Below are positions 31,220 to 43,839 of a stretch of 49,107 nt of DNA, one piece after another. The stretch lies in the NCBI GenBank assembly GCA_017474925.1, contig JAFVGN010000033.1, forward strand, positions 1 through 49,107. Reading direction: 5' to 3'. The notes beneath the pieces were generated by a model that saw only the letters and a program-made list of their open reading frames with translations, was not told where the DNA came from and made no database searches. The position numbers and the translations under genes are program-made. Origin of the DNA: Prevotella sp. (GTDB lineage Bacteria; Bacteroidota; Bacteroidia; Bacteroidales; Bacteroidaceae). How positions within the stretch are numbered: position 1 is the first letter of the stretch; each line of letters begins with the position of its first letter.

Positions 31220-31258
31220 ATATCGCGATGTCTTAATAGGCTTCGCGATATTTATTTT
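31220..31258. terminator. bidirectional terminator between the epimerase gene and rsgA
   Basis: ATATCGCGA (31220-31228) and TCGCGATAT (31243-31251) form a 9-bp stem with T-rich flanks on both strands. The rsgA stop codon (31233-31235) lies in the loop. Confidence 0.82.
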
Positions 31259-32174
31259 CGTCCTTGTCTTCGAGCATGGACAGATATGACTGATAGCGGC
31301 TCTGCGCTATGTAGTGTTCCTCAACAGCCTTCAACACGGCACATCCTGGCTCATGGGTGTGGGTACAGTCAGAGAAACGGCATTGCTTGGAGTATTCGAA
31401 GATTTCTTTGAAATAGCTAGTCAGTTCTTCGCGTTCCATATCGAAAGTACCAAAGCCTTTGATGCCTGGTGTGTCGATAAGCCAGGAATGGGGGGCAGAA
31501 TCTCCGTCAGTTAATGGTGAAAGGGGTATCATCTCACTGAATGTGGTGGTATGCGTTCCCGTATTGTGAGCTTCGCTGATGTCTGCCACGCGCTGGTTGG
31601 CAGTAGGGACAAGAAGATTGATAAGTGTCGATTTTCCTACGCCAGAGTTACCACTTAGTAGTGTGATTTTCCCCTCCAGCAAAGAACGAAGTCCCTCCAC
31701 TCCTTCGCCATTCAGGGCAGAGATGGCTCTGCACTCATAACCTATCGTCTCATAAAGATGAATCATCATCTGCTGATAGTGCTTCTCTTCGTCAGAGAGA
31801 AGGTCCGTTTTGTTGAATATGAGGACGACAGGTACTCGATAGGCCTCGGCGGAGGCTAGGAAACGGTCAATAAAGGTCGTTGAGGTTTCTGGTTTGCAAA
31901 CAGTGACTATTAGCAGCGCTTGGTCGATGTTTGCAGCCAAAATGTGACTTTGTTTCGACAGATTGATACTTTTGCGAATGATATAGTTACGACGGTCCTC
32001 TATTTCTGTAATAAAGCCGTCCTTGATTTCCACCATGTCGCCTACGGCCACAGGATTAGTATTTCGGATACCACGCAGTCTGAAGTTCCCTTTAATTTTA
32101 CAATTGGCAGTCAGTCCATTGTCCGTTAGGACAGTGTACCAACTGCCAGTATTTTTGATGACAAGTCCTCGCAT
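31233..32174 (-). CDS. rsgA: ribosome small subunit-dependent GTPase A
   Basis: 313 residues. An N-terminal OB fold is followed by a circularly permuted GTPase: [11 protein letters not shown] (G4, about 119-129), the P-loop [17 protein letters not shown] (G1, about 172-188) and [12 protein letters not shown] (G3). The C-terminal zinc site reads [16 protein letters not shown]. RsgA checks and matures the 30S ribosomal subunit. It begins directly after the frr stop with no gap, so the two translation-related genes form one operon. Confidence 0.96.
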
Positions 32175-32735
32175 TTAGACCGTCATGATTTCCTTGTTCT
32201 TGGCCTCCATGAGGCTGTCGAGTTTCTTGATGTACTTGTCGTGCAGCTTTTGCAATTCCAGCTCGGCATCTTTCTCGTTGTCTTCAGAGAGCCCGTCCTT
32301 GATGGCTTTCTTCAGTTTCTCCTTGATGTCGGCACGAACATTGCGCACCTCAATCTTAGCTTTCTCTGCAATTTTGTTGCACTGCTTAACTAGGTCGCGA
32401 CGCCTCTCTTCCGTAGGCTGGGGAATACCCAGACGGATGATCTCACCATTGTTCTCTGGGGTAATACCTACATCAGAGTCCATGATGGCTTTCTCAATGT
32501 CTCTGATTTGCTTTCGATCCCAAGGCTTAATAGCAATGGTACGCGCATCAGGGGTCGACACGTTTGCTACTTGGTTTAAGGGTACCTTCTGACCATACGA
32601 CTCAACTCTAACACCGCTTAGAATGGCCACGTTGGCACGTCCTGCACGGACACGGTTCAGCTCTTCTTCCAGAAACAAGGCTGCCATCTCCATGCGCTCC
32701 TCTGCAGAGGATAATGTTTCTTTAACATCTATCAT
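32175..32735 (-). CDS. frr: ribosome recycling factor
   Basis: 186 residues from ATG 32735 (MIDVKETL), the standard length; the frame is open to 32792 but that start lies within the promoter. Motifs include ELNRVRAGRANVAIL, YGQKVPLNQVANVSTPDART, IAIKPWDR, LGIPQPTEERRRDLVKQCNK and the long helix ending in LHDKYIKKLDSLMEAK. Together with EF-G it splits ribosomes after termination. It leads the frr-rsgA operon. Confidence 0.97.
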   Translation of the reverse strand: MIDVKETLSSAEERMEMAALFLEEELNRVRAGRANVAILSGVRVESYGQKVPLNQVANVSTPDARTIAIKPWDRKQIRDIEKAIMDSDVGITPENNGEIIRLGIPQPTEERRRDLVKQCNKIAEKAKIEVRNVRADIKEKLKKAIKDGLSEDNEKDAELELQKLHDKYIKKLDSLMEAKNKEIMTV

Positions 32736-32764: not shown

Positions 32765-32795
32765 CAAAGATACGAATAAGCAGGCAAAACACAAA
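32765..32795 (-). promoter_or_regulatory. promoter of frr-rsgA
   Basis: On the minus strand TTTG (32792-32795), a 19-base spacer and TATCTTTG (32765-32772). It is divergent to the kinase-cluster promoter 17 bases away. Confidence 0.78.
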
Positions 32796-32811: not shown

Positions 32812-32843
32812 TTTGGAAGATGCATTATTTTTTCCTATCTTTG
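32812..32843 (+). promoter_or_regulatory. promoter of the four-kinase operon
   Basis: TTTG (32812-32815), a 20-base spacer and TATCTTTG (32836-32843). The leader runs from about 32850 to ATG 32885. No further promoter of this kind was noticed in the short gaps between the four kinase genes. Confidence 0.78.
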
Positions 32844-32884: not shown

Positions 32885-34975
32885 ATGAATTCATACATAA
32901 CCTTGGCAGCCCAGCCAGATGTCTTAATACAAGCGTTTAATGCTGACCACATACTGGCATATGTGATGGCTACTTTTCTGATTGGTGTTTTTGTCCTTTT
33001 GTTCTATAATAGATTATACTTCCTTCGTGAGCAGGATGCAAAAACCCAGATTCAAAGTTTTAATGGAAGACTAGCATTGATTATGCAGACAGGCAATTTG
33101 CAACTATGGCTTTACGATGTTGACAAGCGGCATTATATTACGTTGTCCGAAATGGGTGAATACGATAAGGAGTATATTCCTATTGACTTTTCTGAAAACT
33201 TTGACCGTGAGGATTTCGAGCGTCTGCGAAAGGTAATATTTGACATATGCGAAGGTCGTCAGGATGTTTCTTCTTCAATATCTTTACGAAGTAATTCGAA
33301 ACACAAAACAGACCAGCGGAACTATGAGGTCAGGCTCTCCATTTTTGACAGAGACGAGAAAGGGAAACCACTGACACTTCTTGGCATCCAGCATGATGTA
33401 ACTGCAGACAGGGCGAAGCAAAAGAAAGTCCGCCAGTTACTGATGCGCTATCATACAGTGTTCAATACTTCCCTGATAGATATGCTTTATTATGACAGCA
33501 AGGGTGTGCTTCGTGACATCAATAGCAAGGCCTGCCAATCGTTTGGCGTTCCTTATCATGAGTATGTGTTGGAGAATGAATTCCTGTTGGAGAACAATCC
33601 TTTCTTCAATGGCCTCGAAATGGGAAAGATGGACAACACCCGTACTACGTCGATCGTCAATTTTGATGATTACACGGAAGAACGCTATCATACCAAAGAG
33701 TTTGGATTGTCAGGTAAGCTATATTATGAGTCGACCATTAATCCAATCCGTAACGAAGAAGGCCAGTTGGAAGGTTTCTATATGGCTGGACGTAATGTGA
33801 CAGAGATGGTGGAGTCCTACCATCGCCAGCAGGAAAGCACCAAAATTCTGCGCAAGGTTACCGAGGACATACAAACCTACATCAGTAACATTAACTATGC
33901 CCTACGTGTGAGCGATGTACGTTTGGTGAACTACTATCCATCATCCTTTACACTAGAAATCTCCCGTAATGTGGCTGAGGGACAGTTGCCGCTTTCACAA
34001 CTGCGTTGCATTCGAATGGCCACACCACGTTTCCGGCGGAAGGTATCCAGTGTGCTGAACCGTATGGACCACCTCTCTCCTCATCCTATCGTGGAAACCA
34101 TAGAGACTGAAATACGCGATAGTAAGGGACGTCAGATATGGCTGATGTTCCATATGGTTCCTATGAAGGACGGCGAAGGCCGTGTGATACGATATTTCGG
34201 ACTGTGCCGCAATCTGACGGATATGGTGGAGATGGAGGGCCGTCTAGCCGTGGAGACTAAAAAAGCACAAGAGACAGAACTGCTCAAGCAGTCGTTCTTA
34301 ACCAATATGAGCTATGAGATTCGTACCCCGTTGAATACTGTTGTAGGTTTTGCCGAATTGTTCGAGTCCGAACACGACGTGGCAGACGAACCTGTCTTCG
34401 TGGAAGAAATCAAGCGTAACTCCAATACCCTGTTGAAACTTGTCAACGACATTCTCTTCCTTTCGCGACTGGATGCCAATATGTTGGAGTATACAAAGAA
34501 TGACGTTGACTTTTCCCTCATCTTTGACAGTCATTGCCAGTTAGGGTGGAGTGGTGTCAAGTCCACGGTGAAGACCATTATCGAGAATCCTTACGAACAC
34601 TTGGTCGTTGATATTGACTTTGAGCAACTTGGCAAGGTGATTGAAAGATTGTGTACGCTTGCTGTTCTTTTTACAGATGAGGGGTTCATCCGTGCCAAGT
34701 ACGAATACAGACATGGTGAATTGGCCATCAGTATAGAGGATAGTGGTAATGGCATAGACGAACAGACATTACCTCATGTCTTCGACCGATTTGTTCGTGA
34801 CCAGCATGGGCGGATTATCGGAACAGGTCTCGACCTGCCGATTATCAAGACGTTGGTGGAGCAGATGGGTGGTTCTATAGAACTGCAGTCTGAGGCAGGT
34901 AAGGGTACTACGGTGTGGGTGACTATTCCCTGTGTGGCTAAGACCATTGAGAAGAAACGTGAAATCATCATTTAA
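32885..34975 (+). CDS. multi-PAS sensor histidine kinase homologue lacking the phospho-acceptor His (pseudokinase)
   Basis: 696 residues from ATG 32885; the longer frame begins inside the promoter. There is one membrane segment (about 24-42), then three PAS-like units (about 55-180, 185-310 and 325-450, two of them ending in RNVTEM/RNLTDM-type motifs), a dimerisation helix region and an ATPase domain. The H-box reads NMSYEIRTPLN: Tyr (codon TAT at 34313-34315, residue 477) stands where His should be. The N-box reads ERLCTLAVLFT and lacks the Mg-binding Asn, and the G2 box is GTGLDLP instead of GTGLGLS. It is therefore probably catalytically dead and works as a sensor or scaffold for the kinase encoded 25 bases downstream. 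Confidence 0.85.
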   Translation: MNSYITLAAQPDVLIQAFNADHILAYVMATFLIGVFVLLFYNRLYFLREQDAKTQIQSFNGRLALIMQTGNLQLWLYDVDKRHYITLSEMGEYDKEYIPIDFSENFDREDFERLRKVIFDICEGRQDVSSSISLRSNSKHKTDQRNYEVRLSIFDRDEKGKPLTLLGIQHDVTADRAKQKKVRQLLMRYHTVFNTSLIDMLYYDSKGVLRDINSKACQSFGVPYHEYVLENEFLLENNPFFNGLEMGKMDNTRTTSIVNFDDYTEERYHTKEFGLSGKLYYESTINPIRNEEGQLEGFYMAGRNVTEMVESYHRQQESTKILRKVTEDIQTYISNINYALRVSDVRLVNYYPSSFTLEISRNVAEGQLPLSQLRCIRMATPRFRRKVSSVLNRMDHLSPHPIVETIETEIRDSKGRQIWLMFHMVPMKDGEGRVIRYFGLCRNLTDMVEMEGRLAVETKKAQETELLKQSFLTNMSYEIRTPLNTVVGFAELFESEHDVADEPVFVEEIKRNSNTLLKLVNDILFLSRLDANMLEYTKNDVDFSLIFDSHCQLGWSGVKSTVKTIIENPYEHLVVDIDFEQLGKVIERLCTLAVLFTDEGFIRAKYEYRHGELAISIEDSGNGIDEQTLPHVFDRFVRDQHGRIIGTGLDLPIIKTLVEQMGGSIELQSEAGKGTTVWVTIPCVAKTIEKKREIII

Positions 34976-35000
34976 TTTTTATTCTTTCCTTTTTCCTTCT

Positions 35001-37076
35001 ATGACATTCCTGTTTATGCTGTATATTTCGTTAGCGTTCCAGATGCCTCAGTTGTTGCCGTCGGTGATTATCTTATCGGTGATGGCAGTGTTTTTCATCG
35101 TACTGTTGTCCAACCGTATGATGCTCCGTCGCATTCATCAGCGTTTGAACCGTGCTCAGTCCACTGTCGATATGATGACAAAAGCTGTGGATATTGTTGA
35201 AAACGATGTGGTGCGTTACGATATACGCGAACGGTACATCTATACGTTGTATGGTACGCTGTTCCCCAAAGAAGGCATTAGTGTCGAGCTATGGAAAAGC
35301 CATGTACATCCAGATGATCTAGAAGAAACTGTGGAATGGTTCCTTCAGATCATTAATGGAGGGTTAAAGCGGGCAGAGTTCCACTATCGTTGGAACTTTA
35401 ACTTTAGTGGTGGAGAGCCGCAATGGGGCTATATGCACAATGTCAGTGTTCCAGAGTATTTACCTGGTACTAAACGTGTCGGAAACATTATCAGTACGTT
35501 GAAGGACGAAACCGAATTGTTGAAGAGGGAGGCGGAAGAAAGCGAATTGACAAGCAGGTATAAGATTATTTTTGAGCATTCCATTATCGGCCTGTCGTTC
35601 TATACTCCTGATGGCTGGCTGCTTGATTCCAACAAGATGATGCGTGATATTTGTCATTTCGACAAAGATGATTTCGATGCATTCTTCTCCAAGACCAATT
35701 TGTTCGATCAGTCGCCTTTCCGTGAGTGTTGCGATAAGAATCATATTGACGATTTGTGGATATGTCATCAGAGTATTGTTCCAGAGCGTGACATTCATGA
35801 CTATTTGGAAACCCGCCTGCACCCCATTTACGACGAAGAAGGTAAAGTAACCTATTTGGTTATAGCCACCCGCAATGTGACAGAAGAACGTGAGATGTAT
35901 TTGCAGTCTAAACTGAACGATATTGAGATTCAAAAGGTCAATGAGAAAATCAGGGCCTATGAGGAGGAACTGACTTTCATGATGGATTCATGTGAAATGC
36001 GGGCGTGGCGCGCATCGCTAGCTGACAAGACTGTCAAGTTCTTCAAGGGGTTGAGTGTTGTAGAACAAGAATTGTCATTTGAAGAACTGACTGAATATTT
36101 CCTGGATGAAAAGGACACAGTTCAAAAGTGGTTTGAGAATCCTGCGAAATACTTGACTAACACTGTGAGCTTTATGGCCAGGACGCGTCCAATCTTCCAC
36201 CAGACGGACGAAGTACAGTGGAACCAGATTAATAGTATTCCTATCCATGATAAGGATGGAGAATTAATCGGTGTTTTTGGCTTGATGCGTAATATATCAG
36301 GTCTGATGAAGAAACAGGAACAGTTGAGGCAGGAAACGGAGCGTGCTAACGACTCAGGCAGATTGAAGTCCGTGTTCCTGGCCAATATGACCCATGAGAT
36401 TCGTACTCCGCTGAATGCCATCGTCGGTTTCTCAGATCTTTTGCAGGCCATTGAGTCGCCTGACGATAAGAAGGAGATGATTCGGGTCATCCATAACAAC
36501 TGTGATATGCTTCTCCGACTGACAAATGATATTCTGATGCTTTCCAACGTTGATGCCAATGCCATGGAGCTAATTCCGGAAAAAGTAGACTTCGCCAATG
36601 CGTTCGAGGATATATGTCAATCTCTACAACAACGCGTTCAGGAGCCTTCTGTGGAGTTCCAGAAGGACAATCCCATGCAGTCGCTTATTCTTACAATCGA
36701 TATGGGGCGTATTCAGCAGGTCATCACTAATTTCGTCACTAATGCTGTTAAGTACACCCACCAGGGGCACATCCGTGTGGGATACAGGGTTGAGGACCTA
36801 CAGGAACAGAAAACCGGAAAACTACAGCAGGCCAAGTTGTATGTTTATTGTGAGGACACTGGTGCCGGTATACCCAAGGAGAAGCAGGTTGCTGTATTCG
36901 AACGCTTTGTTAAACTAAACGATTACATTCAGGGTACGGGTCTTGGTCTTTCCATTTGTAAAGCTATTATCGAAAAGTATAGTGGCGAGATAGGTGTCGA
37001 TAGTGACGAGGGTAAGGGGGCTACTTTCTGGTTCAGGATACCTGTGGAAATTGAAAAGGAAGAGCATAACGGGTAA
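35001..37076 (+). CDS. multi-PAS sensor histidine kinase
   Basis: 691 residues from ATG 35001 (MTFLFMLYIS); the frame is open into the preceding gene, so an upstream start is possible. One or two membrane segments lie within the first 40 residues and there is no periplasmic domain. PAS-like units follow (about 65-175, 185-310 and 330-440), then a complete kinase core: NMTHEIRTPLNAIVGF with the phospho-acceptor His (codon 36393-36395, residue 465), NFVTNAVKYT (N-box), DTGAGIP (G1) and GTGLGLSIC (G2). No receiver domain is fused and no response regulator is encoded nearby. It is the only canonical member of the first pair. Confidence 0.9.
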   Translation: MTFLFMLYISLAFQMPQLLPSVIILSVMAVFFIVLLSNRMMLRRIHQRLNRAQSTVDMMTKAVDIVENDVVRYDIRERYIYTLYGTLFPKEGISVELWKSHVHPDDLEETVEWFLQIINGGLKRAEFHYRWNFNFSGGEPQWGYMHNVSVPEYLPGTKRVGNIISTLKDETELLKREAEESELTSRYKIIFEHSIIGLSFYTPDGWLLDSNKMMRDICHFDKDDFDAFFSKTNLFDQSPFRECCDKNHIDDLWICHQSIVPERDIHDYLETRLHPIYDEEGKVTYLVIATRNVTEEREMYLQSKLNDIEIQKVNEKIRAYEEELTFMMDSCEMRAWRASLADKTVKFFKGLSVVEQELSFEELTEYFLDEKDTVQKWFENPAKYLTNTVSFMARTRPIFHQTDEVQWNQINSIPIHDKDGELIGVFGLMRNISGLMKKQEQLRQETERANDSGRLKSVFLANMTHEIRTPLNAIVGFSDLLQAIESPDDKKEMIRVIHNNCDMLLRLTNDILMLSNVDANAMELIPEKVDFANAFEDICQSLQQRVQEPSVEFQKDNPMQSLILTIDMGRIQQVITNFVTNAVKYTHQGHIRVGYRVEDLQEQKTGKLQQAKLYVYCEDTGAGIPKEKQVAVFERFVKLNDYIQGTGLGLSICKAIIEKYSGEIGVDSDEGKGATFWFRIPVEIEKEEHNG

Positions 37077-37088
37077 TAAAAGGATAAG

Positions 37089-39935
37089 ATGCACAAAAAC
37101 ATGAGAAGACTTTTACTACTATTCCTTTGTAGCATATCGTCTACTGTTTCTATTCTGGCAGTAGATGATACTAAGCCAATGGCTGTTAACCCTTCTGACA
37201 GCACGAGGCAGTATACTGAGGAACATCCCCTGATTTATGAGGATGCATGGGATTTATGGCCTTATGTCTTTCTAAATGAGAATGGAGAGGCTGTAGGTTA
37301 CAATATCGATGTCCTTAAGCTCATTTTCCGCGAACTGAACATCTCCTGCGTCATTAAGCTGAAACCCACGGATAAGGTATTGAACGACCTCAAGGCAGGA
37401 CATGCCCACCTGACATTGGGCATGGATGCTTTTTTCCATAATGATTATGGTCAATATGGCAAGTCAGTTATTCACATTTTCACTCATAGCATCGTTCATC
37501 GTAAAGACGAACCCGTTGAGGTCAGGAGTGTAGACGACTTGGCCCATCACAAAGTGATAGTCCATAGAGGCAGTTTTAGCCACCATCTGATGGAACAGCG
37601 TGGATGGGGACAACAGGCTGACCCCTACAATGATATGCAGGAGGCTATACAGTTGGTACACAACGAACCAGGACATCAGATTATCTGGAACACGCTTTCG
37701 CTTAAATGGCTCCTGCGGAAATTCCATTTTGATGATTTGGAACTGACCCCTGTCAATGTTCAGCACGGGGAATACAAATTCATGTCCAACGATACTCATT
37801 TGCTCCATCAGCTGGACAGTGTCTATGCTAAGTTGAATGCAGAGGGGCGTTTCCAACCCATCCAGAACAAATGGTTCTATCCTGAGCGTAAAGACTCGGG
37901 CATCCCATCGTGGATATGGGTGGTTATCTCGGTTTTGTTATTGTTCACTCTTGTTTCCATCATATTCTATTTCATCTATCGTAACAGGGAGAAAAAGATG
38001 ACGAAGAGTCTCCGTAAGAGTAATCGTCGTCTATCGCTCATCCTCAAGACCAGCAACGTGCGTGTCTGGGTTTACAATATTGCTACAAAGACCATCATTG
38101 CCTTCGACGACAATGCTCAGCAGGAGGGAGAGAAATTGTCATTAAACAATTTCTTCTTTTCTATTTTGGAAGAAGATTTTCATCGTATTGAACAAGCTCT
38201 TTCGGACATCTCCCTCGGCAAGGTGGAAAAATGTACGCTCGATGTACAATCCAAGGACGATTCCCTGGAGCGGTTCCGTCATATTTCCATCAATCTCTGC
38301 ATCTTCCGTCATGACAAGAACAATAAGCCTACCGACATTATCGGAACTTCAAGCGACATTACTGAAGAACAGCTTCGACAACAAAAGGTGAAGGATAACG
38401 TATTACGCTACCAGTCCGTGTTCAATTCTGCCATGGCTGACATCGTAGCTTACGATGAACATGGCATCATCATCGATATGAATGATAAGGTGCGTAGCAG
38501 TTTACCAGATGAAATTGACTCCATCCTGAATGCCAAGATTTCAGTCCGTGATGTTTTGGGAAGCGAGTTCAAGGACTTGAAGCATCTGGAGTATACCTAT
38601 GTGACCCAGCTACTCCATTGGCCTGATGACAATCGTGCCCTAAGCCGTCTGTTGAAGCGTCCGGAAATGTTCTATGAACTGCAGATGCTGCCTCTTCGTG
38701 ATGCCAATGGACGGTTGTTGGCAGTATATGGTACAGGCCGCAATGTGACAGACATTGTCAGGTTATACAAAACCCATCAGGCAAATATCCAACAATTGCA
38801 GCAGGCCAATCATTCCCTAGACAGATATATACGCAACATCGACTTTGTACTGAAGTATGGTGGCGTACGGATAGTTTCTTATTCAATTGATACCCATACG
38901 CTGGTAATTTATAGTGAGGTGGGAACGAAGGAGCTGGTACTAACCCAGACCCGTGCTCTCACGCTGACTGGCGACAAGTCCAAGCGGCTGGCCCTAAAGG
39001 CATTCATCAGCATGGACAATCGTACACATTCCCCTGTTGAAGTTACGGTTGTGACATTGTTGCACCACCGAGGTGGGATGGACAACTCGTCATGCCCGCT
39101 TTACTTGCATTTGAAGCTTATCCCCACACTTGACAATGAGGGGCAAGTGACGGGATATTTCGGCATGTGTCGTGACATCAGTGAAATAAAGGCTACTGAG
39201 GAGAAACTGGCTGGCGAGGTGATTAAGGCGCAGGATGTGGAGTCCATCAAGAACGCCTTTTTGCGCAATATGAGTTATCAGATCCGTACACCGCTTAACT
39301 CTGTTGTTGGCTTTTCCGAACTACTGGAGATGGATCATGACCCCGAGGATGAACCGCTTTTTATTCAGGAAATCAGCGACAATGCCTCCCAGCTGCTGGA
39401 ACTTATCAACGATATTCTGTTCCTCTCACGACTCGATGCCCACATGATAGAGATTAAACCTGTCCCAGTCAACTTTGCTGCTTTTTTCGAATCACGTTGC
39501 CAGACTGCCTGGACCAATTATCAGCCGTCTGGTGTCAGCTATGTAGTCGACAGCGAATACAAGAGTTTGGTCCTTGACATCGATGCGCAGAACATAGGAA
39601 TTATCATCGATCAAATTGTAGCCAACTCCGCCCAGCATACTACATCCGGTGAGGTACGTGTCAGTTACAATTATAATGGTGAGGAACTGATGATGACTTT
39701 TCAAGATACGGGCTGTGGTATTCCTGCGAGCCAGTTAGGAATGATTTTCGACCGTTTTGCCACTACGGGCAGTAGGGGTACGGGTTTGGGGTTGTGCATT
39801 TGCAAGGAGTTGGCACAGCAGATGAATGGCAAAATAAGAGTCCAGTCGCAAACAAGCAAAGGCACTATCGTGTGGGTTTCCATTCCCTGCCATTGTAGCG
39901 AATTAGTCAGGAAAAAGAAAGGAGAAAGCGAGTAA
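37089..39935 (+). CDS. sensor histidine kinase homologue with periplasmic solute-binding domain, phospho-acceptor His replaced by Tyr
   Basis: 948 residues from ATG 37089 (an inner ATG at 37101 is possible). A signal peptide is followed by a periplasmic solute-binding protein family 3-type domain (about 35-265: AVGYNIDVLKLIFRELNI, DLAHHKVIVHRGS, ending NKWFYPERK). Then come a membrane segment (about 272-297), PAS-like units (about 310-425, 435-560 and 570-700) and a kinase core. The H-box is NMSYQIRTPLN with Tyr at residue 730 (codon 39276-39278). Unlike the first homologue, the ATPase domain keeps Asn (VANSAQHT), DTGCGIP and GTGLGLCIC. It may bind ATP but cannot autophosphorylate on the usual residue, so it probably senses a ligand and acts with the kinase encoded four bases downstream. 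Confidence 0.85.
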   Translation: MHKNMRRLLLLFLCSISSTVSILAVDDTKPMAVNPSDSTRQYTEEHPLIYEDAWDLWPYVFLNENGEAVGYNIDVLKLIFRELNISCVIKLKPTDKVLNDLKAGHAHLTLGMDAFFHNDYGQYGKSVIHIFTHSIVHRKDEPVEVRSVDDLAHHKVIVHRGSFSHHLMEQRGWGQQADPYNDMQEAIQLVHNEPGHQIIWNTLSLKWLLRKFHFDDLELTPVNVQHGEYKFMSNDTHLLHQLDSVYAKLNAEGRFQPIQNKWFYPERKDSGIPSWIWVVISVLLLFTLVSIIFYFIYRNREKKMTKSLRKSNRRLSLILKTSNVRVWVYNIATKTIIAFDDNAQQEGEKLSLNNFFFSILEEDFHRIEQALSDISLGKVEKCTLDVQSKDDSLERFRHISINLCIFRHDKNNKPTDIIGTSSDITEEQLRQQKVKDNVLRYQSVFNSAMADIVAYDEHGIIIDMNDKVRSSLPDEIDSILNAKISVRDVLGSEFKDLKHLEYTYVTQLLHWPDDNRALSRLLKRPEMFYELQMLPLRDANGRLLAVYGTGRNVTDIVRLYKTHQANIQQLQQANHSLDRYIRNIDFVLKYGGVRIVSYSIDTHTLVIYSEVGTKELVLTQTRALTLTGDKSKRLALKAFISMDNRTHSPVEVTVVTLLHHRGGMDNSSCPLYLHLKLIPTLDNEGQVTGYFGMCRDISEIKATEEKLAGEVIKAQDVESIKNAFLRNMSYQIRTPLNSVVGFSELLEMDHDPEDEPLFIQEISDNASQLLELINDILFLSRLDAHMIEIKPVPVNFAAFFESRCQTAWTNYQPSGVSYVVDSEYKSLVLDIDAQNIGIIIDQIVANSAQHTTSGEVRVSYNYNGEELMMTFQDTGCGIPASQLGMIFDRFATTGSRGTGLGLCICKELAQQMNGKIRVQSQTSKGTIVWVSIPCHCSELVRKKKGESE

Positions 39936-39939
39936 AATT

Positions 39940-42687
39940 ATGAAACGATTCCTTCATCATATTGTCTGTTGTTTGTCGGCTATGCTCTTAGCAGTTCCGG
40001 CCGTATCAGCCAATGGTAGCTACGGCTATACCGACGATCACCCTCTTGTCATTGTCTGCGACTGGGATTTTCAGCCCTTTGAATTCCTCAGTACCGACGG
40101 CGATCCTGCCGGCTATAATATCGAGGTGCTCGACCTGATCCTCAACCGGTTGGGCATCCCCCATCGGTTTGTCATGCAGGAATGGCATGCTGCAACACAG
40201 ATGTTTGAACGTCGCGAGGCCGACTTGATACATGCTCCCTCTCTTGTCTATGGTCGTCCTCCATATATGATGACCCAAAAGTATATCAACTATTATAAGC
40301 TCCGTGCTGCTCGTCGTCTTGATACGCCGCCATTGCCCCATATACGGGATCTTGACCGTACCGACATACTTATTTTGAGGAAAGACGACTATGTAACGAT
40401 GAGCGTTCAGCAGTTGGGCAGAATCCCCTTTCAGGTGGAGTTCCTATCGCCCAAGGAGGCGCTGACAACTATTCGCAGCGAACGCGGCCGCTATTTCATC
40501 TGGGGCGAGATACCCCTTAACCGCAAGGTGAAGGAGCTCGGTCTCGACAGTATTGCCCTTGACGAGATTGACATTCCCACAGCCGAGTTGCATATCATAG
40601 GCTATCGCGAGGACATTGTCAACATCATTGATGACGAATATACCCGTCTTGAACAGGCAGGCGATCTCCAGAAAATCTACGATAAGTGGTTCTATCCCGA
40701 GCGGGTTCACGATGACACCTCTCCCGTTGCCCTCTTCATTCTTGCCGGACTGTGTGCCGTTGTTGCCCTCTTCTTCTTGCTCAACCGTCTGACTACCTTG
40801 CGTGTCAGGGTCGCTGTGCGCAAGAGCGGCGACCTGAACAGCATGATGACCCAGGCCTTGGGCATGGGCGAATATTACGTTCTAGAGTACGACCTTCAAA
40901 CAGGCCATATTCGCAATCTTTATGGGAATCTGATTCCACCTTCTGGCATGCAAATGGATGAGTTTGTCAGCCGCGTCGATGCCAGTCAGCAGCACGACCT
41001 TCTCGACCATCTTGACAAAATGCGCCAAGGGAAGAACTCCTTCTGGGCCGTCAGGCGGCGCTGGAATGCCGGTACCTTGGAGAATCCTCAGTGGAAAGAC
41101 CTGTATGGCAAGGCTATCACTGAGGACGAGCATGGCAGTCAGCGCTACATCATCAATATCTTCAAAGATATTACCCAAGCTGTGGCCGACGAGAACCGTA
41201 ATCAGGAGCTGGCAAGCCGTTACATGAGAATTTTCGACACCAACTTGATGGCCATGTCATACTACGATAGTCAGGGCCTTCTGCTTGACCTGAACCAGAA
41301 AATGCGCGACCTTTGTCAGTTCAGTGGAGAGATGGAGCAATTCTTCCGTAGCATCTCGTTGGGTGATATGCCGATAATTAAGGGGGATTTTGATCCTACT
41401 AGCCACGACCCCTTCCACGTATGTCACCGCATGTTTCACCCCAAGCAGGGGCTTGATCGGTATATCGAATTTCGCATTAACCCCATTTTCGACGACGATG
41501 ACCGTCTGGTGTATTATGTCACCACCTGCCGTGACCTTACTGACGAGCGCAATATGATTCTCCAGCAGCGCGAGCACGACCGTAAGATGCAGGCGACCAA
41601 TGCCAGCATCAGTCACTATGAACAACAGCTGCACTATTTGCTCGAGGAGAGTGGCATGTATGTTTGGAACCTTGATTTGCAGCGGCGTTCTATAGATTTT
41701 TCCCGTACGCTTAGCAAACCCGAATTCAGTGAGTCACTCGACGAGTATATCAAAAGTATGGATGGGCAGCCTCATCAGCGCTTTCTCGAAACTTTTCAGC
41801 AATATATTGACCAGGGGCTTCCCTTCCAGGTTGTCCGCCATTTTGATCATACTCCCGTTGATGAAAAACCAGTATGGTACAATATTAGCGGCATGCCCCT
41901 GACGGACAATCAGGGACGCATTACCCATTATTTCGGTTTGGCTCGTAATGTCACCTACTTGATGGAGGCGCAGGAGCAGCTGCGCAACGAGACCGAACGT
42001 GCCGAGAACTCAGGACGGCTTAAGAGTGCCTTCTTGGCCAATATGACCCACGAAATACGCACACCGCTGAATGCCATCGTTGGTTTTAGCAGTCTGTTGC
42101 ATACCGTAGATACCGTAGAAGAGCGCCAAGAGTTTATCCGCATCATCCGCAACAACTGCGATATGCTGCTGCGACTCATCAACGACATTCTCGAAGCCTC
42201 CAGCATGGGGCAGTCCATGACCATAGAGGCTGTGCCCGTCGACCTCGCTGTTGCGTTCAACGAGATATGCCAGACGCTCTCTCAGCGTGTGCAGGAGTCT
42301 GGCGTAAGCTTCATCATGGACAATCCCTACGTTACCTATCCTGCAACCCTCGACAAGGGCCGTTTGCAGCAGATACTTACTAACTTTGTCACCAATGCTG
42401 TTAAGTATACTCGCCAGGGACATATTTGCGTAGGCTATCGCGAGGAACACCGTCATGGTAAGCCTGGGCTTTACTTCTATTGCCAAGACACCGGTGCTGG
42501 CATTCCCATTGAAAAGCAGTCAGCAGTCTTTGAGCGTTTTGTCAAGCTCAACGACTTTGTCCAGGGAACGGGTCTCGGATTGTCCATCTGCAGAGCCATT
42601 ATCGACCGTTGCCATGGTGACATTGGAGTCAGCTCAGAAGGTGAGGGTCACGGTTCCACCTTCTGGTTCTGGATTCCGACGGTTTGA
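39940..42687 (+). CDS. sensor histidine kinase with periplasmic solute-binding domain
   Basis: 915 residues. The signal peptide (ending AVSA) is followed by a periplasmic solute-binding family 3-type domain (about 28-250: DWDFQPFEFLSTDGDPAGYN, FERREADLIHAPS, DKWFYPERV), one membrane segment (about 265-287), PAS-like units (about 300-410, 420-545 and 560-670) and a complete kinase core: NMTHEIRTPLNAIVGF with His (codon 42049-42051, residue 704), NFVTNAVKYT, DTGAGIP and GTGLGLSIC. The binding domain points to recognition of a small solute such as an amino acid or sugar acid; the ligand is unknown. Codons ending in C are more frequent here than in the first three kinase genes, which may reflect separate ancestry or gene conversion. 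Confidence 0.9.
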   Translation: MKRFLHHIVCCLSAMLLAVPAVSANGSYGYTDDHPLVIVCDWDFQPFEFLSTDGDPAGYNIEVLDLILNRLGIPHRFVMQEWHAATQMFERREADLIHAPSLVYGRPPYMMTQKYINYYKLRAARRLDTPPLPHIRDLDRTDILILRKDDYVTMSVQQLGRIPFQVEFLSPKEALTTIRSERGRYFIWGEIPLNRKVKELGLDSIALDEIDIPTAELHIIGYREDIVNIIDDEYTRLEQAGDLQKIYDKWFYPERVHDDTSPVALFILAGLCAVVALFFLLNRLTTLRVRVAVRKSGDLNSMMTQALGMGEYYVLEYDLQTGHIRNLYGNLIPPSGMQMDEFVSRVDASQQHDLLDHLDKMRQGKNSFWAVRRRWNAGTLENPQWKDLYGKAITEDEHGSQRYIINIFKDITQAVADENRNQELASRYMRIFDTNLMAMSYYDSQGLLLDLNQKMRDLCQFSGEMEQFFRSISLGDMPIIKGDFDPTSHDPFHVCHRMFHPKQGLDRYIEFRINPIFDDDDRLVYYVTTCRDLTDERNMILQQREHDRKMQATNASISHYEQQLHYLLEESGMYVWNLDLQRRSIDFSRTLSKPEFSESLDEYIKSMDGQPHQRFLETFQQYIDQGLPFQVVRHFDHTPVDEKPVWYNISGMPLTDNQGRITHYFGLARNVTYLMEAQEQLRNETERAENSGRLKSAFLANMTHEIRTPLNAIVGFSSLLHTVDTVEERQEFIRIIRNNCDMLLRLINDILEASSMGQSMTIEAVPVDLAVAFNEICQTLSQRVQESGVSFIMDNPYVTYPATLDKGRLQQILTNFVTNAVKYTRQGHICVGYREEHRHGKPGLYFYCQDTGAGIPIEKQSAVFERFVKLNDFVQGTGLGLSICRAIIDRCHGDIGVSSEGEGHGSTFWFWIPTV

Positions 42688-42720: not shown

Positions 42721-43839
42721 TCACTTCACTCCTACAATCTTCGTCTTGGGTAATTCGGCATTTCGGCGGTTGACAACCGTGACGACAGCCTGTGCCAGGT
42801 TGATGAATGCCAAACCAGTGGCGTTGTCGCTGTGCGTGGCTGCTGGCTCGCCGGCATCGCCACTCTCACAGATAGCCTGTATCAAGGGTATCTGTGCCAG
42901 TAGGGGAACATTCATCTGCTTGGCCAGCTGCTTGCAGCCTTCACGCCCGAAGATGTAGTAGCGGTTTTCGGGCAGTTCGGCAGGCGTAAACCATGCCATG
43001 TTCTCAACAAGCCCCAAAATAGGTACGTTTACTTTCTCATTGCGATACATGTCTATACCCTTGCGCGCATCGGCCAGGGCTACCTGTTGGGGTGTCGACA
43101 CAATGACGGCTCCTGTAATGGCCAGCGTCTGAAGCAACGTCAGGTGGATGTCGCTGGTGCCTGGCGGTGTGTCGAGGATGAAGTAGTCGAGCTCGCCCCA
43201 GTCGGCATCGGCAATGAGCTGTTTTAGCGCATTTGTAGCCATGCCGCCGCGCCAAAGCGTAGCAGTGTCGGGCGAGACGAAGAATCCGATGCTGAGCATC
43301 TTCACGCCGTATACCTCGATGGGACTTATTAGGTCGCGGTCACCGACACGTACGGCGTAGGGCCGCTGGTCCTCCGCATGCAGCATCTTGGGCATCGAAG
43401 GACCAAAGATGTCGCAGTCGAGCAGCCCCACCTTGTAGCCTAAGCGGGTCAGGGCAATGGCCAAATTGGCAGATACGGTGCTCTTGCCCACGCCACCCTT
43501 GCCTGAGCTGACGGCAATGATGTTCTTCACCCCAGGTAGTAGCTTGCCCACCTCGGGACGTGGCTTTGACTTGAATTCGGTTTTAATCTCTACCGCCACT
43601 TCCTTGCCACATCGGTACTTGATGGCGGCTTCAGCCGCCTTGACAGTTGACTTTAGGAATGGGTCGGTGTCGCGCGGGAACTGGAGTACCACCGTCACTC
43701 GCCAGACTTCACCCACTTGTTGCGGGGCACTGACGGAAGGTTGGTCGGCTACCATCTGGCTTTCCACTAAGTTTTTCTTCGTGCCAGCATAGGTCACCGT
43801 AGCCAACGCGTCCATAATCATCTGAGGATATATTGTCAT
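42721..43839 (-). CDS. Mrp/NBP35-type ATPase, iron-sulfur cluster carrier
   Basis: 372 residues. The N-terminal about 95 residues resemble the MIP18/DUF59 domain (WRVTVVLQFPRDTDP). The P-loop ATPase carries AVSSGKGGVGKSTVSANLA with the deviant Walker A lysine (about 111-129), LLDCDIFGPSMPKML, and DYFILDTPPGTSDIHLTL. The segment GLVENMAWFTPAELPENRYY lacks the CxxC pair of canonical Mrp proteins, as I recall for Bacteroidetes homologues. It probably carries or inserts Fe-S clusters in the cytoplasm. It starts 23 bases after the TolC-like gene and may share its transcript. It converges with the kinase cluster 33 bases away, without an obvious terminator. Confidence 0.92.
   Translation of the reverse strand: MTIYPQMIMDALATVTYAGTKKNLVESQMVADQPSVSAPQQVGEVWRVTVVLQFPRDTDPFLKSTVKAAEAAIKYRCGKEVAVEIKTEFKSKPRPEVGKLLPGVKNIIAVSSGKGGVGKSTVSANLAIALTRLGYKVGLLDCDIFGPSMPKMLHAEDQRPYAVRVGDRDLISPIEVYGVKMLSIGFFVSPDTATLWRGGMATNALKQLIADADWGELDYFILDTPPGTSDIHLTLLQTLAITGAVIVSTPQQVALADARKGIDMYRNEKVNVPILGLVENMAWFTPAELPENRYYIFGREGCKQLAKQMNVPLLAQIPLIQAICESGDAGEPAATHSDNATGLAFINLAQAVVTVVNRRNAELPKTKIVGVK

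Follow-up and report, generated by a model that had tools for sequence, protein, structure and literature searches.

The 49,107-nucleotide stretch of Prevotella sp. DNA analyzed here (contig JAFVGN010000033.1, hereafter the window) carries an operon of four sensor histidine kinase genes, K1 to K4, in which a protein with tyrosine at the phosphoacceptor position is twice followed by a protein with histidine there. We refer to the upstream members (K1 and K3) as A-type and to the downstream members (K2 and K4) as B-type. Operons of one to three such live/dead kinase pairs point to sensors that work as unequal pairs rather than as identical twins, and our preferred reading, to which we give a probability of about 0.6, is that each A-B pair would form an unequal membrane sensor complex with B as the working kinase and A as its regulatory partner. 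We infer the physical complex, the direction of control and the route of the phosphate from what the data establish, namely the sequence state of the A and B proteins, their pairing, co-variation and ancestry, and their association with other genes at the genome level. The features on which the argument rests are as follows.

32885-34975, + strand: K1, 696 amino acids, A-type sensor pseudokinase (open reading frame (ORF) call and profile classification)
34313-34315, + strand: K1, Tyr codon TAT at the phosphoacceptor position, H-box NMSYEIRTP
34658-34660, + strand: K1, Leu where the N-box should have its Mg-ATP Asn, read from the sequence (Asn missing in 59 of 68 K1-type proteins)
35001-37076, + strand: K2, 691 amino acids, B-type sensor kinase with every scored catalytic motif intact
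36393-36395, + strand: K2, phosphoacceptor His codon CAT, H-box NMTHEIRTP
37089-39935, + strand: K3, 948 amino acids, A-type sensor pseudokinase
37257-37877, + strand: K3, SBP_bac_3 (periplasmic binding-protein domain), residues 57-263 (Pfam)
39276-39278, + strand: K3, Tyr codon TAT at the phosphoacceptor position, H-box NMSYQIRTP
39940-42687, + strand: K4, 915 amino acids, B-type sensor kinase with every scored catalytic motif intact
40045-40692, + strand: K4, SBP_bac_3, residues 36-251 (Pfam)
42049-42051, + strand: K4, phosphoacceptor His codon CAC, H-box NMTHEIRTP

All four proteins contain HisKA and HATPase_c domains above the Pfam curated cut-offs, along with PAS matches. The order of H-box residues proposed by an earlier, sequence-only reading of the window (Tyr, His, Tyr, His, with TAT for both tyrosines) was borne out by the ORFs: K2 and K4 have the phosphoacceptor His together with the N, G1, F and G2 motifs, and K1 and K3 lack the His that characterizes HisKA kinases. 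K1 consists of a single N-terminal transmembrane-like stretch, PAS, HisKA with Tyr and HATPase_c, and no periplasmic sensor was found in it by Pfam search or hydropathy; K2, like K1, has an N-terminal membrane anchor only by hydropathy, and SBP_bac_3 was absent from both in Pfam. K3 is built of a signal-like stretch, SBP_bac_3, a transmembrane-like stretch, PAS, HisKA with Tyr and a HATPase_c domain with the N-box Asn, and K4 shows a signal-like stretch, a periplasmic domain and a membrane stretch by hydropathy. The same genome (G000, 2.28 Mb, 64% complete) holds a third pair, K5-K6, on contig C54, with H-boxes NMVQEIRNP (Gln) and SMTHELRTP (His), so the rule is usually a non-His protein upstream and a His protein downstream, rather than Tyr as such.

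We surveyed the family in 139 stretches from 121 genomes, comprising the window, the stretch with K5-K6 (L009) and 37 plus 100 further stretches. The latter 100 came from the listed best places and the selection as a whole drew on the top K3 matches, so that this is not a random sample and divergent members are under-sampled. Profiles of the A and B types split 420 kinase ORFs 210/210; 407 of them passed 200 bits, and for each of these the two profile scores differed by 36 bits or more. The 13 ORFs dropped below this threshold were other kinases, fragments at contig or stretch ends (including one A with Glu and three B with His) and one truncated B-like ORF with Gln (L041). Three A halves inside fused ORFs, each with Tyr, lie outside the resulting count of 205 A proteins, and three of the 139 stretches (L051, L053 and L075) gave no kinase core.

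At the phosphoacceptor column the two types behave very differently. All 202 B proteins have His, together with E+1, T+4, P+5 and N, and they keep the other scored motifs wherever the residue is readable. The 205 A proteins have Tyr (139), His (30), Phe (19), Gln (11) or another residue (6: Ser, Glu, Lys, Gly, Asn and Trp, once each, the Trp of L056 being doubtful since it adjoins a gap in a partial ORF), and 175 of them thus lack His. The interpretation offered by the sequence-only reading is thus partly supported. Its pseudokinase upstream and kinase downstream stood; Tyr, whose conservation in the upstream partner it had put forward for checking, is the commonest residue there but not strictly conserved, as Phe, Gln and 30 His occur beside it. 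His in most homologues of K1 and K3, the outcome it had named as contrary, did not occur. Among the fetched stretches, 110 of the 121 genomes have at least one non-His A, 101 have at least one with Tyr, and in the remaining 11 every A has His.

The distribution of the family is narrow. K3 relatives (E <= 1e-90) were found in 170 of 398 same-genus genomes and in 57 of the 175 near-complete ones. At the family level (151 genomes, E <= 1e-90) a genome from a different genus (G101) gave a match confined to the sensor region, and in an order-level search (149 genomes, E <= 1e-60) the matches listed beyond the window's own genome spanned only the C-terminal part, mostly HisKA-HATPase and in some cases the last PAS. 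Since the order-level matches are C-terminal only, we treat the A-B family as confined to the genus. A scan of GTDB contigs with the A alignment gave at least 80 loci, of which the best four (L085-L088; Prevotella or Prevotellaceae) matched over nearly the full query and the other listed matches were generic kinases; it was not used for the counts.

The A proteins come in two grades. The K1-type comprises 68 short ORFs, whose ancestor in the tree (support 0.99) also holds one longer ORF; 64 lack His, 59 lack the N-box Asn and only one has both, and few columns vary as much as that of the N-box (rank 232 of 239). G1 Asp is kept in 67 of the 68 and a G2 Gly in all, with another G2 position changed to Asp in 57. 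In the 137 K3-type proteins the N-box Asn (124), E+1 (132) and T+4 (131) are mostly retained, with a free His column (entropy rank 137 of 231). Judged by these motifs, K1 seems inactivated on two counts, and K3 resembles a protein with an ATP site but no acceptor.

This retention beside a variable His raises the possibility that A is a dedicated phosphatase arm opposing B, one that docks the receiver and strips its phosphate; A and B may then be separate homodimers. T+4 (the HxxxT-type position) is kept in 190 of the 205 A proteins and E+1 in 198, with His free to vary between them, and in EnvZ the T247A change abolishes phosphatase activity and H243A kinase activity (PMC5727384; here and below, statements on published systems follow excerpts of the cited papers). 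The K1-type argues the other way, with T+4 more relaxed (59 of 68) and the N-box Asn mostly lost, as does DivL of Caulobacter, the Tyr-bearing precedent, which is described as having neither kinase nor phosphatase activity (PMC4211667). We consider a phosphatase arm quite possible, though at less than even odds; it is compatible with an unequal complex, and the odds of the two do not add to one.

In a tree of 63 rows (19 A, 17 B, 7 hybrid kinases and 20 other kinases), A (support 100/100) and B (98/95) form sister branches (99/90), the stem of A being 1.11 changes per site long and that of B 0.33. From the sister position and the long stem, A appears to be a rapidly diverging copy of a B-like kinase. 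We then reconstructed the states of the H column on a 232-row tree built with that column removed, using a FastTree topology and a simple model. Parsimony gave about 11 changes from Tyr to His. Without regain, 42 losses of His are needed (26 after collapsing weak branches), and forbidding regain in a two-state rate model cost 13.9 log units within A and 35.8 over the whole tree, the former being the fairer figure because B never varies. A therefore appears to have regained His on several occasions, as far as such a model can tell. Tyr (TAY) and His (CAY) codons are one transition apart, and around the site the His-bearing A proteins remain A-like (with MS preceding it in 25 of 30 and MT in none, vs MT in 183 of 202 B), which makes gene conversion from B unlikely. 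We also considered, and dropped, the idea that His was lost early and that A was ancestrally non-His, as the parsimony margin was one to two steps and the likelihoods at the A root were level (His -52.8 vs non-His -52.4).

The regain of His suggests that Tyr itself is not the point. A sensor of the tyrosine-kinase type, in which this Tyr is phosphorylated, would fit its frequency in A; we reject it because the residue is naturally replaced by Phe, Gln, Ser, Glu, Lys, Gly, Asn and His. The loss of the Mg-ATP Asn from most K1-type proteins speaks against it too, as does DivL, reported to function without kinase activity, and we regard it as the least credible of the explanations considered here.

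The order of the genes follows the pairs. Runs of kinase cores read ABAB in 61 cases, AB in 58 and ABABAB in 2 (of these 121, two extend to a stretch end), and the remaining runs were ABA (6), A (5), B (4), BB, BAB and ABB (1 each). Because all 121 whole-pair runs read (AB)n, the alternation is not due to chance. A B core directly follows A in 194 of 205 cases, and the other 11 lie at contig or stretch ends or have a B piece only. Sensor architecture, judged by ORF length, is matched in 191 of the 194 A-B neighbours; the three mismatches are two fused ORFs and a long A frame in L232. Two loci (L045 and L221) have six alternating kinases in one run. At three loci B of the first pair is fused in frame to A of the second (K2-K3 type), with no stop between B and A:

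L046, 2-4135: fused B-A ORF
L248, 5543-10312: fused B-A ORF
L250, 5490-10286: fused B-A ORF

The A parts of these fusions are 82-83% identical to each other and all have Tyr, consistent with a single conserved fusion lineage, and the fused ORFs account for the BB and ABB patterns. Among the four lone B genes, that of L054 lies at a contig start and those of L248 and L258 are pieces, which leaves L071 as a genuine exception. L041 (7015-9474) holds a truncated, degenerate extra A/B-like pair sandwiched by two full pairs, in which the B-like member, with a score of just 56 bits, carries Gln in its H-box, and its A-like neighbour (415 amino acids) was missed by the profiles.

Members of a pair also vary together. 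In the 56 ABAB loci that combine a short pair with a long one, distances between kinase cores correlated at 0.76 (A1-B1) and 0.81 (A2-B2) for cognate partners and at 0.40 (A1-B2) and 0.50 (B1-A2) for non-cognate proteins of the same operon, a difference of 0.33 (bootstrap 95% 0.20-0.43). Partial correlations were 0.70 and 0.77 for cognate vs 0.13 and 0.25 for non-cognate combinations, and the cognate values stayed higher in subsets of 54, 47 and 27 loci. Order and co-variation together show that the pair is the evolving unit, in agreement with the sequence-only reading; co-variation does not establish contact between the proteins.

The faster evolution of A, its motif losses, the degenerate pair of L041 and the lone B of L071 might suggest that A is a functionless decaying duplicate, kept by adjacency to B. 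We consider this very unlikely, given 205 A cores in open frames across the genus and nearly invariant columns beside the His site; in the K1-type the altered G2 position is mostly constant (Asp in 57 of 68), and the rate model favours regain of His.

Downstream partners were sought in the flanks and in the genome. No receiver gene was found beside the window operon, either by reading the flanks or by tblastn with five receiver queries; the queries matched 6 of the 139 stretches (L067, L217, L219, L288, L291 and L301). In the divergent members L067 (8718-10933) and L301 (8968-11082), A is closely preceded, on its own strand, by an OmpR-type regulator and an ordinary kinase (NIAHELKTP), and a similar kinase lies 5' of A in L068 and L303.

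The window's genome has eleven receiver domains, and two candidates stand out among the proteins with them: a stand-alone receiver (a 117-amino-acid frame, G000:C7) and a soluble kinase-receiver hybrid (G000:C9). In a set of 60 genomes (receiver E <= 1e-38 in a frame of 117-150 amino acids, hybrid E <= 1e-60), each was present in 23 of 25 genomes with pairs (AB+) vs 0 of 35 without (AB-), as counted from match lists. In the 398 genomes the hybrid occurred in 150 of 170 AB+ vs 9 of 228 AB-, and the stand-alone receiver (E <= 1e-34) in 144 of 170 vs 7 of 228; in near-complete genomes both parts were present in 50 of 57 AB+ and either part in 0 of 118 AB-, the latter figure being derived from the tallies. 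The kinase core of the hybrid is the best match to K1 in the window's genome outside the A and B proteins, and in the 63-row tree the hybrids group weakly with the kinases of the order-level search, not with A and B.

Two further kinds of protein were seen in this context. A full-length relative of a receiver-phosphatase protein (REC-PP2C, SpoIIE) was present in 17 of 25 AB+ vs 3 of 35 AB- genomes by a count from the match list, which is not strict, and we do not claim it as the output; a SpoIIE-type phosphatase is convergent with K6 in L009 (1939-3882), and the receiver-SpoIIE protein is commoner in pair-bearing genomes. About 5 kb from the kinase-receiver hybrid, L406 (328-1401, G048:C35) encodes a receiver-HisKA-HATPase protein, and frames of 387-394 amino acids that match the receiver query lie similarly near the hybrid in G015, G052 and G054.

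The co-occurring parts are of the same kinds as DivK and CckA, the partners of DivL, and by analogy A might be DivL-like, its DHp domain binding the phosphorylated stand-alone receiver so that information would run from receiver to A to B. Tyr is commonest in A and PAS domains are present, as in DivL, and the two AB- genomes that fall inside the AB+ clade have neither the pairs nor the receiver nor the hybrid. The receiver could equally be the plain phosphate acceptor of B, and the independent contrasts are few; we consider this flow of information rather unlikely. It and the phosphatase arm are the main rivals to the reading given at the outset, and they do not exclude each other. A broader and speculative proposal, to which we give clearly less than even odds, is that serial, obligately asymmetric heterodimers, with an A acceptor that is dispensable and has repeatedly been lost and regained by single-base changes, would be wired to the receiver and hybrid. 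They would then be an independently evolved equivalent of DivL-DivK-CckA in Bacteroidota, and two or three pairs (B-A fused in one lineage) would act as one multi-input assembly.

In the unequal complex that we favour, B (K2 and K4) would be the histidine kinase that carries the phosphate, and A (K1 and K3) a partner usually without a phosphoacceptor. The His of B would be phosphorylated from B's own ATP domain; in K3-type pairs the mostly intact ATP site of A might donate phosphate to it in trans, which is probably not feasible for K1-type A. Signals from the sensor and PAS domains of A would set B to kinase or phosphatase mode, K3/K4 sensing through their paired periplasmic binding-protein domains and K1/K2, which have no such domains, from the cell interior. 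The phosphate would then pass to a receiver encoded elsewhere, for which the stand-alone receiver and that of the hybrid are the best candidates.

Several observations weigh against this reading. In a subset of A proteins (24 of 205), His, the N-box Asn, G1 Asp and a G2 Gly are all present, and to judge by these residues they may be active. L071 (2832-5588) encodes a B-type kinase with no A gene within 2.8 kb upstream. Gene linkage and the replacement of pairs as units could yield both the co-variation and the matched architecture. Mean-field coupling analysis of A with B picked up mainly alignment-end artefacts (gaps at the B end), with 0 DHp-DHp pairs in the top 100. Mutual information between DHp domains is only suggestive: its mean was 0.061 for cognate vs 0.050 for non-cognate partners, the cognate value was not larger in 63% of position pairs, and the top cognate pairs lay at near-equal positions (+22/+22 and +29/+28). 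Finally, in an rpoB tree of 43 genomes AB+ is essentially one clade (18 of its 20 rows), the two AB- genomes inside it (G058, 80% complete, and G059, 99%) having neither pairs, receiver nor hybrid; because AB+ is mostly one clade, the receiver association rests on 2-3 independent contrasts, a number too small for a test.

Most descriptions of histidine kinases are of homodimers, and pseudokinase partners are known one protein at a time. DivL, which acts with CckA and DivK, is a single protein and is not known to be half of an adjacent gene pair. It resembles K1 and K3 in its Tyr at the phosphoacceptor position and its PAS domains, and it is described as teaming with an active kinase in a network that holds a stand-alone receiver and a hybrid kinase. 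It differs in that its partner is the hybrid kinase, whereas Prevotella A has its own B as sister branch and can carry Phe, Gln or His as well. In a PDB sequence search with K1, DivL was second of 20 matches, level with ordinary kinases, and it is not included in the 63-row tree. Its Tyr is called unique in the excerpted structure paper, where changing it to His gives autophosphorylation stimulated by DivK~P (PMC4211667).

FasB and FasC of group A Streptococcus (with FasA) are similar in layout, being encoded by two adjacent, co-oriented sensor kinase genes as in K1-K2 and K3-K4; they form hetero- but not homodimers by two-hybrid, and one partner is proposed to be a pseudokinase (PMC12675982). 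As described, however, that partner keeps its His and its kinase domain is dispensable, whereas here most A proteins lack His and B supplies it; the Fas operon has one pair and a response regulator, and the window operon has no response regulator. RocA, from the same species, is a membrane pseudokinase that interacts with and tunes the active sensor kinase CovS (PMC7028121), and is in that respect similar to what we propose for A; its His246 is present yet reported as dispensable, and it is described as a single accessory protein, not one of serial pairs. Communication between two sensor kinases is also described for RetS-GacS in Pseudomonas and for RcsD-RcsC in enterics. RetS and GacS differ from the A-B reading in that they can also homodimerize (PMC12675982), and RcsC and RcsD in that they are homodimers, a 1:1 heterodimer being thought unlikely, and that RcsD, whose kinase domain is inactive, has an HPt domain (PMC13317618). 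ChrS-HrrS heterodimers have been detected by two-hybrid (PMC9491836).

Pseudokinase-kinase partners are thus already known (DivL, RocA, FasBC), and the serial alternating pairs in one operon seem to be the new part: in the literature searched, mostly without subscription papers, we found no such pairs, in Prevotella or elsewhere. This agrees with the sequence-only reading, which knew of no operon with two pairs. Some 200 natural A-B pairs are available within one genus, their labour cleanly divided at the sequence level. The phosphoacceptor position provides a series of natural variants (Tyr, Phe, Gln, His and others), combined with two grades of inactivation and apparent regain of His. With this family one can test directly what role a pseudo-histidine kinase plays for its partner and whether heterodimers of kinases are a fixed state or an optional one, and the receiver and hybrid kinase name a candidate pathway for such tests.

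The operon itself is compact. As the sequence-only reading had described, the four genes lie in tandem on the + strand with gaps of 25 (K1-K2), 12 (K2-K3) and 4 (K3-K4) bases behind a single promoter-like site, which is the following.

32812-32843, + strand: promoter-like site TTTG-N20-TATCTTTG, a pattern match 5' of K1

We take this pattern to be the Bacteroides-type promoter consensus. A scan with TTTG-N19-21-TANNTTTG gave 8 matches in the whole window vs 0.48 expected and no exact match within the four-kinase operon. The site is back to back with a similar one on the - strand (32765-32795). Among the 119 whole-pair runs that do not touch a stretch end, 71 have a promoter site near the run start and 115 have no internal one.

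The window operon is flanked by frr-rsgA (31236-32732) and by a gene for an Mrp-type ATPase (42724-43839), both on the opposite strand, and the position of the operon is often conserved among the stretches. An AraC-family regulator comes next after the last B gene, in the same orientation, in 33 of the 139 stretches, the window not among them, and in 32 of the 33 its frame starts at most 100 bases from that gene; the one in L041 (15240-16127) has AraC_binding and HTH_AraC domains with no receiver domain found, and those at the other 32 loci were assigned by BLAST clustering. On the opposite strand, an rsgA-type gene lies 5' of the operon in 58 of the 139 stretches and a CitMHS-type transporter gene lies 3' of it in 45, in the place taken in the window by the Mrp-type gene.

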